A stretch of 64,000 nucleotides of DNA, from the NCBI RefSeq assembly GCF_900177325.1, contig NZ_FXBL01000004.1:2418001-2482000 (forward strand). The letters are read 5' to 3'. Origin of the DNA: Mesorhizobium australicum (GTDB taxonomy: Bacteria; Pseudomonadota; Alphaproteobacteria; Rhizobiales; Rhizobiaceae). The translations under genes and the position numbers were made by a program. Positions 4,961-6,827 of the stretch are shown here, one piece after another; position 1 is the first letter of the stretch, and every line of letters starts with the position of its first letter. Under the pieces are notes generated by a model. It was not told the origin of the DNA. It searched no databases and was given only the letters and a program-made list of their open reading frames with translations.

Positions 4961-6280
4961 ATGTCAACGACTTTCGACCTGATCCTCAAGGGCGGCACGG
5001 TCGTCAACCATGATGGCGAGGGCGTGCGCGATGTCGGCATCGTCGCCGGCCGCACCCATGCGCTGGGCGATCTTTCCCGCGCCAGCGCCGGCGAAACGAT
5101 CGACTGCACAGGCCTGCATGTCCTGCCGGGCGTGGTCGACAGCCAGGTGCATTTCCGCGAGCCCGGCCTGGAGCACAAGGAAGACCTGGAGACCGGTTCG
5201 CGCGCGGCCGTGCTGGGCGGTGTCACCGCGGTCTTCGAAATGCCCAACACCAAGCCGCTGACGACCAGCGAGGCCGCACTCGCCGACAAGGTCGCCCGCG
5301 CCACCGGCCGCATGCACTGCGACTTCGCTTTCTGGGTCGGCGGCACGCGCGACAACGCCAAGGATGTGGCCGAGCTGGAGCGCCTGCCGGGTGCTGCCGG
5401 CATCAAGGTCTTCATGGGCTCGTCCACAGGCGATCTCCTGGTCGAGGACGACGATGGCGTCTATTCGATCCTCAAGAACACCCGCCGCCGCGCCGCCTTC
5501 CATTCGGAGGACGAGTTCCGCCTGCGCCAGCGCCTCGGCGAGCGCGTGCCCGGCGATCCGGCTTCCCACCCCGTCTGGCGCGACGAGATCGCCGCGCTCC
5601 AGTGCACTGAGCGCCTCGTCGCAGTCGCCCGCCGCGCCCGCGCCCGCATCCATGTCCTGCACATTTCGACCGCGGAAGAGATCGAGTTCCTCGAGCACCA
5701 CAAGGATGTCGCCACCTGCGAGGCGACACCGCACCACCTGACGCTGACCGCCGACGACTACGCCCGCCTCGGCACGCTGCTGCAGATGAATCCGCCGGTG
5801 CGAGCCGGCCGCCATCGCGACGGCGTCTGGCGCGGCATCTCGGACGGCATCGTCGACGTGCTCGGCTCCGACCACGCGCCGCACACGCTGGAAGAGAAAG
5901 CAAAACCCTATCCGGATTCACCTTCCGGCATGACGGGCGTGCAGACGCTCGTTCCGGTGATGCTCGACCACGTCAATGCCGGCCGCCTGACCTTGCAGCG
6001 CTTCGTCGATCTCTCCAGCCACGGCCCGAACCGCATTTTCGGCATGGCCCGCAAAGGCCGCATCGCCGCCGGCTACGACGCCGACTTCACCATCGTCGAT
6101 CTGAAGCGCCGCGAAACGATCACCAACGAACAGCAGGGCTCGAAAGCCGGCTGGACCCCGCATCACGGCCGCGAGGTTACCGGCTGGCCCGTCGGCACCA
6201 TCGTGCGCGGCATGCGCGTCATGTGGGACGGCGAGATCGTGACGGCGGGACGGGGCAGGGCGGTGGAGTTTAGTGAGTAG
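4961..6280 (+). CDS. pyrC: dihydroorotase-like amidohydrolase (class I PyrC family)
   Basis: 439 residues, full length for class I dihydroorotase, which closes carbamoyl-aspartate to dihydroorotate in pyrimidine synthesis. Visible residues are HFREPG after the first strand, Lys149 (GIKVFMGSS), His181 (FHSEDE), the HVLHIST region at 231-237 and Asp304 (GSDHAPH). The metal-binding HxH reads S-Q-V-H at 61-64, so the first histidine is glutamine. It may be a divergent or non-catalytic paralogue, or use a different metal arrangement. A ribosome site AGGGA precedes the ATG. No other pyr gene is nearby. The stop codon lies inside the first, degenerate copy of the heptamer array at 6275. Confidence 0.82.
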   Translation: MSTTFDLILKGGTVVNHDGEGVRDVGIVAGRTHALGDLSRASAGETIDCTGLHVLPGVVDSQVHFREPGLEHKEDLETGSRAAVLGGVTAVFEMPNTKPLTTSEAALADKVARATGRMHCDFAFWVGGTRDNAKDVAELERLPGAAGIKVFMGSSTGDLLVEDDDGVYSILKNTRRRAAFHSEDEFRLRQRLGERVPGDPASHPVWRDEIAALQCTERLVAVARRARARIHVLHISTAEEIEFLEHHKDVATCEATPHHLTLTADDYARLGTLLQMNPPVRAGRHRDGVWRGISDGIVDVLGSDHAPHTLEEKAKPYPDSPSGMTGVQTLVPVMLDHVNAGRLTLQRFVDLSSHGPNRIFGMARKGRIAAGYDADFTIVDLKRRETITNEQQGSKAGWTPHHGREVTGWPVGTIVRGMRVMWDGEIVTAGRGRAVEFSE

Positions 6281-6302
6281 GCAGTAGGCAGTAGGCAGTA
6301 GG
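6275..6302 (+). repeat. short heptamer array, CAGTAGG orientation (left arm)
   Basis: One degenerate unit (GAGTAGG, 6275-6281) and three perfect copies of CAGTAGG (6282-6302). The degenerate unit contains the TAG stop of the dihydroorotase gene. The unit is the exact reverse complement of the CCTACTG unit in the 20-copy array at 6688-6827, so the two arrays form an inverted repeat around the four-helix-bundle gene. Confidence 0.97.
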
Positions 6303-6312
6303 GATTGCCTTC

Positions 6313-6684
6313 CTAGCTTGCTTCGATTTTGCGGATCAGGGCTCGCAACATCTTGCCTAGCTGATCGCATTCGAGCAGCCGACGATCTGCTTCGTCTTTC
6401 GAGCTGAAACCGAGACGAACCGCGAGAAGAAGATGCGTCTCGAACTCCTTTAGAGAGCCCTGCGCAATGCGCAGAAACTGTTGGTAAGAGCCCTTGCTAT
6501 CGCGGCCATAGCCTTCCGCAATGTTTGCCGCAATTGAAGTCGCTGCGCGGCGGATTTGATTTGTCAGGCCGTATTGCTCGGATTTCGGCCAGTTTTGAGT
6601 AAGGCCATAGGTCTCGACTGACAGGTCCATGGCGCGTTGCCAGACGAGAAGGTCTCTGTACGAATCAATTTTCGCCGAGTCCAC
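6313..6684 (-). CDS. four-helix-bundle protein (S23/23S rRNA intervening-sequence protein family)
   Basis: 123 residues with the family pattern: [14 protein letters not shown] (8-21), [21 protein letters not shown] (38-58) and a helical tail. Relatives form a pentameric, positively charged four-helix bundle. Some are encoded in 23S rRNA intervening sequences, and the Avd protein of diversity-generating retroelements shares the fold; both facts point to nucleic-acid binding. The start is GTG at 6684, only 3 bases from the end of the 20-copy heptamer array, so the last repeat supplies the only purine-rich sequence upstream. The gene is not inside an rRNA and no reverse transcriptase is present. 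Base composition is lower in GC than its neighbours, suggesting transfer. Confidence 0.88.
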
Positions 6685-6687
6685 TTT

Positions 6688-6827
6688 CCTACTGCCTACT
6701 GCCTACTGCCTACTGCCTACTGCCTACTGCCTACTGCCTACTGCCTACTGCCTACTGCCTACTGCCTACTGCCTACTGCCTACTGCCTACTGCCTACTGC
6801 CTACTGCCTACTGCCTACTGCCTACTG
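6688..6827 (+). repeat. 20 perfect tandem copies of the heptamer CCTACTG
   Basis: Twenty uninterrupted, identical 7-bp units occupy exactly 140 bp, with no spacers. All plus-strand frames are open through the array (repeating PTAYCLL), whereas each minus-strand frame meets a TAG every 21 bases. It sits directly upstream of the GTG of the four-helix-bundle gene and ends 4 bases before the stop codon of the next gene. Perfect identity implies recent expansion or active homogenisation, so copy number is likely to vary between isolates. Confidence 0.98.

Follow-up and report, generated by a model that had tools for sequence, protein, structure and literature searches.

What is a small gene of the S23 family doing between two arrays of one heptamer, set in opposite orientations in the gap between a pyrC-type gene and the gene for a 266-aa protein? 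The locus that raises this question lies in the window, i.e. the whole 64,000-nucleotide stretch of DNA analysed here, and the question is a directly testable one, with the results below tying heptamer arrays to one small protein family. The answer that we hold to be probable is that this interval represents a single copy of a minimal mobile element, termed the S23 element in the following, which consists of one S23 gene between inverted 7- or 8-mer arrays.

The locus and its genome

Table 1. Features of the interval and of its two neighbours, in positions of the window
Feature	Position	Strand	Description
Left neighbour, dihydroorotase, pyrC-type	4961..6280	+	NF006559, 796.6 bits; context, outside the element
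Left array	6276..6302	.	AGTAGGC x3.9, 27 bases, perfect (TRF and direct reading)
S23-family (PF05635) four-helix-bundle gene	6313..6684	-	123 aa
Right array	6688..6829	.	CCTACTG x20.3, 142 bases, perfect, 100% identical (TRF)
Right neighbour, 266 aa	6832..7632	-	context; site marker in relatives

Profile searches place the encoded protein in the S23 family well above the curated cut-offs, with 132.4 bits against PF05635 (cut-off 33.8, E 8.8e-39) and 133 bits against TIGR02436, 'four helix bundle protein' (cut-off 24). Its predicted model (pLDDT 97.3) has four helices and agrees with the four-helix-bundle fold of the solved members. The gene starts with GTG, adjoining the right array, and its GC content of 0.54 is lower than that of either neighbour (0.68 and 0.66), as the first-pass annotation had noted. 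The two arrays are exact reverse complements of each other, and two-unit matches with at most one mismatch number 22, as against a mean of 0.01 in 100 shuffles. These observations, made by TRF, direct reading and the two profiles, bear out the initial description of inverted heptamer arrays bracketing a gene of the S23/IVP type. The interval had further been described as bounded by two convergent stop codons; the arrays and gene are as described, but the left array overlaps the pyrC-type ORF, whose TAG stop (6278-6280) lies inside it. On the other side the neighbouring ORF, which has no Pfam or NCBIfam match, ends two bases past the right array. No transposase family was matched at E 0.001, and the PF05635 gene is the sole gene of the element. 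Two matches to known RNA families in 5800-7200 were discarded, both lying far below the gathering scores. Two ORFs on the plus strand (6629-6889 and 6637-7662) read through the right array as LLPTAYC repeats and are likely spurious; such long ORFs arise there because the reverse-complement strand of the array is stop-free in every frame. Other short tandem repeats in the window (4498-4546, 8747-8786 and 25693-25726) have periods of 17-21 bp and are unrelated to the heptamer.

The same genome carries one other S23 gene, located between nuoC and nuoD and bracketed by inverted AATGGTG arrays. In addition, AGTAGGC/CCTACTG arrays were found at eleven further places besides the window, five of which are inverted pairs around spacers of 37-71 bp (the left arm of one, L024, having only 2.9 units) while the other six stand alone, in some cases with a short, worn hairpin behind them. 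Tandem 7-mers scattered over one genome, the hallmark of dispersed STRR-like heptamers, are present here. Two of the single arrays (L022 2031-2096 and 3455-3512) lie 1.4 kb apart in equal orientation, each followed by a near-identical short worn inverted copy, which gives the impression that one array is a copy of its neighbour. A search of this genome for reverse transcriptases yielded neither an RVT_1 (PF00078) match nor a candidate.

Arrays on both sides accompany most S23 genes of the family

PF05635 is present in five of the seven genomes of the genus and in 94 of the 297 of the family. A census of 121 S23 loci was assembled in two batches of 95 and 26, the first of which was compared with 277 control windows shifted by 400-800 bp; the second includes four partial-domain matches and one weak Avd-like gene. 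A sub-threshold fragment (G159:C17) was left out, and split genes were scored as one piece each. Arrays of 7- or 8-mers lie on both sides of the gene at 73 of the 95 first-batch loci and in none of the 277 control windows, and the identical motif, inverted, is present on both sides at 50 of the 95, again as against 0/277. In the second batch, which is without controls, the corresponding numbers are 15 and 10, so that both batches together have arrays on both sides at 88/121 loci and identical inverted motifs at 60/121, arrays not being scored on both sides at the remaining 33 of the 121. Three sites account for 47, 21 and 18 of the 95 first-batch loci, so that the census does not consist of independent cases. 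Most relatives of the gene lie next to such arrays, the opposite of what would have told against the initial reading. The motif varies: not every array has CCTACTG as its unit, and different lineages have different 7- or 8-mers. A strict consensus starting with A[AG]T fits most census motifs and was rejected, as it fails for CGGTCGT and for several motifs from other phyla (e.g. L142 and L168).

The GC content of the S23 domain is below that of its flanks in 95/95 first-batch loci, and purine content is greater upstream than downstream in 92 of 94 family loci. Among 17 gene pairs, three of them without a value, the median dN/dS of the S23 gene is 0.068, with 0.051 for the window copy versus that of G004, a genome of the same genus; the S23 protein is under purifying selection.

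Filled, empty and gene-less sites

Comparison of orthologous sites within the genus shows the gene and its arrays to be jointly missing in some genomes, and differing lineages to occupy the nuo site in others. Between nuoC and nuoD, the genome of the window (G000) and G003 have AATGGTG elements, G001 has a CGGTCGT element and G006 (L134) an AGTCGGC element whose left arm has the relic of an AATGGTG array on its outer side. The junctions of G004 and G005 are empty, the nuoC stop being followed by 10 and 8 bases, respectively, and then by nuoD, with no heptamer in either. G002, which has no orthologous nuoD match, was excluded from this count. A single genus therefore presents three S23 lineages and two empty junctions at one site. 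The juxtaposition of outer relic and inner AGTCGGC array in the left arm of G006 would fit the replacement of one element by another at the same site. At the site of the window the gene is found in G000 and G004, a short inverted array only in G003 and a one-sided relic in G005; no heptamer was found there in G002 and G001, and G006 has no match to the marker gene. The comparison of empty with filled sites between the same neighbours, which the first-pass annotation had suggested, thus finds both forms among the relatives, and close strains do not all share the same interval.

Taken with the lineages and the motif linkage described below, these sites make mobility of the S23 element well supported, as a reading of presence and absence rather than of movement itself. 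We detected no excess of target-site duplications: matches of at least 7 were found at 4/72 loci as against 27/408 swapped pairs, in a test that left out 23 of the 95 loci, which lack two scorable arms, and that could miss worn duplications. Apparent duplications at L129 and L133 are suggestive by eye and were discounted for the same lack of excess over swapped pairs. Flipping of the S23 gene was likewise dismissed, with all 5,800 flank matches tallied at orthologous sites having the gene in the same orientation.

Array motif and protein travel together

We mapped the motifs on a domain tree computed from 95 S23 sequences and 116 columns, in which many forks lack resolution. The 87 motif-called loci require 25 motif changes, as against a mean of 62.7 upon shuffling (minimum 55 of 200) and of 50.1 when shuffling within sites (minimum 43). 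The nuo site alone, with 41 loci, shows 10 changes versus 25.7 in shuffles (minimum 23), and unit length changes only twice on the whole tree. Moreover, AATAGCG genes at two different sites fall into one 11-row clade (support 97). Array and S23 protein travel together. Such linkage is on its own no proof of recognition, as common descent could give it.

Arrays elsewhere in the genomes bear on this point. Three-unit AGTAGGC arrays occur in 24/297 genomes; S23 is present in 20 of these (p 7e-8) and absent from 4/24. Three-unit AATGGTG arrays occur in 29/297, with S23 present in 21 (p 2e-6) and absent from 8/29; the genomes being related, these and all other Fisher p-values given here are too small. 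For the first 95 loci, AGTAGGC arrays are present in 7/7 genomes whose S23 motif is AGTAGGC versus 13/87 with other motifs, and AATGGTG arrays in 11/12 genomes with the AATGGTG motif versus 10/82 others; upon addition of two clear second-batch genomes the counts become 8/8 versus 12/86 and 11/13 versus 10/81. All seven AGTAGGC-motif genomes have arrays away from the S23 gene, as must at least nine of the AATGGTG-motif genomes, with G000 having AATGGTG arrays only at the gene. Gene-less arrays are preferentially of the motif of the resident S23 gene. From this match in trans, together with a fold like that of Avd, we infer that the S23 protein likely recognises its own heptamer. The proposal of a small self-contained element with arrays of its own is hence strengthened from three directions, namely the array census, the filled and empty sites, and a linkage of motif and protein that extends across sites.

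S23 loci of other phyla, plasmids and 23S rRNA genes

When named genomes were scanned with part of Xanthomonas XCC0516 as query, 580 loci were confirmed, the best 80 of which span Xanthomonadales, Bacteroidota, Clostridia, Planctomycetes, Chloroflexi, candidate phyla and others; 76 of these 80 had full flanks and four did not. Among the 76, from the best 80 of 580, autocorrelation has a sharp period-7 peak on both sides of the gene (0.371 and 0.375 at lag 7 versus 0.256 and 0.259 further out), and a clear period was called at 54 loci (7 in 38, 8 in 10, and 6 or 9 in 6), with shuffles giving such calls in 16/380. In the same 76 of the best 80, an inverted match of at least 12 was found at 39 loci, as against 3/304 swapped and 0/69 shifted pairs, direct orientation reaching this score at 15, and purine content was greater upstream than downstream at 64, compared with 29/69 control flanks. 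In three Xanthomonas species the S23 gene adjoins two or a few GGGAATC-type units, these being short loci with an inverted-match score of only 7 to 9.

The plasmid sample covers 10 of 42 records, and loci L138-L191 were read by eye; nine of the ten plasmid loci have inverted arrays and one (L168) has direct ones. On plasmids of Anabaena sp. 90 (L163) and Pseudanabaena galeata (L168) the S23 gene and its arrays are placed within a CRISPR locus, with cas6 on one side and cas4 on the other. Three loci are situated inside 23S rRNA genes, L170 in Azospirillum and L183 and L184 as two copies in one genome, all with the same build and with inverted 7-mers. A tblastn search of phages gave no match to the S23 protein. 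Phylum-wide, four-unit RGTRGNN arrays occur in 23/299 genomes, 16 of them with S23 (p 8e-9), including 7/14 outside the family of the window (p 0.0012); the reversed motif is also enriched in S23 genomes (9/22, p 0.006), which makes this test a weak one.

Array dynamics and RNA folding

Nine of the eleven gene-less loci were found in the corresponding stretches of G004, L024 and L025 having no counterpart there; at shared loci, G000 and G004 have unequal numbers of units. At one inverted pair (L023 2068-2138) the spacer is inverted between these two species, with 90.1% identity as reverse complement versus 48.8% forward (shuffles at most 54.3), and the flanks are unchanged; of the other spacers, two keep their orientation and one is unalignable. 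At another (L023 9203-9346) G000 has AGTAGGC in each of the two arms, and G004 has an 8-mer type in each. Recombination between the arms would account for both the flipping of the spacer and the concerted change of the arms.

The first-pass annotation also held that the arrays could fold together in a transcript. In both elements of this genome the S23 ORF lies within terminal inverted repeats able to form a stem, and pairing of the arrays around it is predicted. The nuo element folds far better than its shuffles (z -6.55, 0/100), but the window element, with its unequal arrays, does so only modestly (z -2.57, 3/100), and there the claim stands in weakened form.

A model for the S23 element and its alternatives

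We propose that the S23 protein probably forms a five-membered ring like its solved relatives, 2gsc and 2rld, which have five chains each. This ring would recognise its own heptamer in tandem, either as DNA or as a hairpin of array RNA, acting in cis on the ends of its own element and in trans on arrays that have no gene; the latter would then be non-autonomous copies. We know of no catalytic domain or partner enzyme for the S23 protein, and cutting and copying might be supplied by host replication or recombination enzymes. Recombination between the arms would invert what lies between them and preserve the likeness of the two, and 23S rRNA intervening sequences would be S23 elements that have landed in rRNA loops.

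A bolder version, which as a whole we regard as tentative and possible rather than probable, makes S23 proteins the readers, and perhaps the writers, of a heptamer code that extends across bacteria. One 7- or 8-mer would be specified by each S23 lineage and recognised in tandem by the five-membered ring, and the protein would cause arrays of this unit to arise at the ends of its own gene and elsewhere in the genome. The purine-rich strand runs inward on either side, which is the outcome to be expected if both 3' ends of a break were tailed. One system would have given rise to the 23S intervening sequences and to the dispersed heptamers of Xanthomonas and cyanobacteria, and Avd would be a relative that a reverse transcriptase has recruited.

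A first alternative, to our minds unlikely, is that gene and arrays form a cassette that does not transpose, an RNA hairpin like the 23S intervening sequence that is kept for a host RNA function and spreads only via horizontal transfer and homologous recombination between existing arrays. The strong purifying selection on the gene and the array stem around the ORF of the nuo element (z -6.55, 0/100 shuffles) are in its favour, as is the concentration of family copies at few sites (47, 21 and 18 of 95 loci at three), and the array relics of G003 and G005 at the window site could be landing places. However, array homology cannot explain insertion at nuo junctions that are empty of any heptamer, and the many unrelated sites across phyla likewise argue against a cassette. 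Less probable still is that the S23 protein is an accessory like Avd, with mobility conferred by another enzyme of the cell, e.g. a reverse transcriptase or recombinase. The fold relation to Avd points this way, and RVT_1 is weakly associated with S23 in the family (46/94 S23 genomes vs 64/203 others, p 0.0045); yet 48 of the 94 S23 genomes are without RVT_1, among them that of the window, and a reverse transcriptase as obligate partner was rejected on its absence from this genome and the weakness of the association. That the arrays are independent simple repeats growing by slippage, into which S23 genes merely insert, is very improbable: gene-less arrays are common, their unit numbers differ between G000 and G004, and G003 has one at the window site, but the empty nuo junctions have no array, the same motif stands inverted on both arms, and motif tracks protein clade within and across sites.

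Relationship to known systems

If the S23 element is what we take it to be, elements that encode a single 120-aa protein, devoid of any known catalytic domain, recur across phyla. Three puzzles would be joined, namely the dispersed heptamer repeats, the 23S intervening sequences and the role of proteins annotated as 'four helix bundle protein'. The abundance of seven-letter repeats between bacterial genes could find part of its explanation here, and the finding would also be relevant to how Avd arose. We found no link of heptamer arrays to S23 genes outside rRNA in the open-access library searched.

The REP/RAYT systems offer one parallel: in them a single small gene lies between inverted copies of a repeat, pairs of which are also scattered without the gene. 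The S23 element likewise has one small gene, inverted repeat copies and gene-less pairs; in contrast, its protein is not a Y1 (HUH) transposase by profile search, and its unit is a 7-bp tandem repeat rather than a REP palindrome. Unlike insertion sequences and MITEs, it has no transposase match and no excess of target-site duplications. With Avd the S23 protein has a common fold, seen by structure comparison (4dwl, 8ub7/8ub8) as the first-pass annotation had stated, at 11% sequence identity, and the window protein scores 24.9 bits against the Avd model (cut-off 80). In its solved structures Avd is the RNA-complex partner of a reverse transcriptase, and the genome of the window differs from those with diversity-generating retroelements in having no reverse transcriptase (no PF00078 match). 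The one such Avd-like gene of the census, L319 (G031 contig 99, a 3-kb region), is a weak PF05635 match beside a reverse transcriptase; it is probably the Avd of a diversity-generating retroelement, and has no heptamer arrays.

Dispersed heptamers have been described from several bacteria, including GGGAATC genome-wide in Xanthomonas, with 70 and 75 convergent inverted pairs, and GGGGA(C/T)T in Nostoc (PMC4692102), TAACTGA in Beggiatoaceae (PMC4679880) and the Geobacter heptamer elements (PMC2700814). Tandem 7-mers that are genome-wide and mostly intergenic are common to these and to our arrays, and the Xanthomonas S23 genes adjoin units of the published GGGAATC type. The available portions of the three papers (PMC4692102, PMC4679880, PMC2700814) name no S23 gene, and that of PMC4692102 reports no general association of the Xanthomonas heptamers with mobile elements.

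The nearest known kind is the 23S intervening sequence. In Coxiella burnetii, according to the accessible part of PMC4990558, the S23p ORF lies in the loop of a stem formed by terminal inverted repeats, tandem GACAGAT heptamers of strain-variable number are found upstream of it, and such a sequence has already been proposed to be a mobile or selfish element; in the same part we found no extension of this build beyond rRNA. The S23 ORF inside inverted repeats is common to both, and our three loci in 23S genes (L170, L183 and L184) combine it with inverted 7-mers. The window element differs in lying between the pyrC-type gene and that of the 266-aa protein, outside any rRNA gene, in ending in perfect heptamer arrays, the right one long, and in sharing its heptamer with gene-less arrays of the genome. 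Because each known kind that we compared fails a tested defining feature, we judge the S23 element to be a new kind of minimal mobile element, of which the 23S intervening sequence would be a special case.
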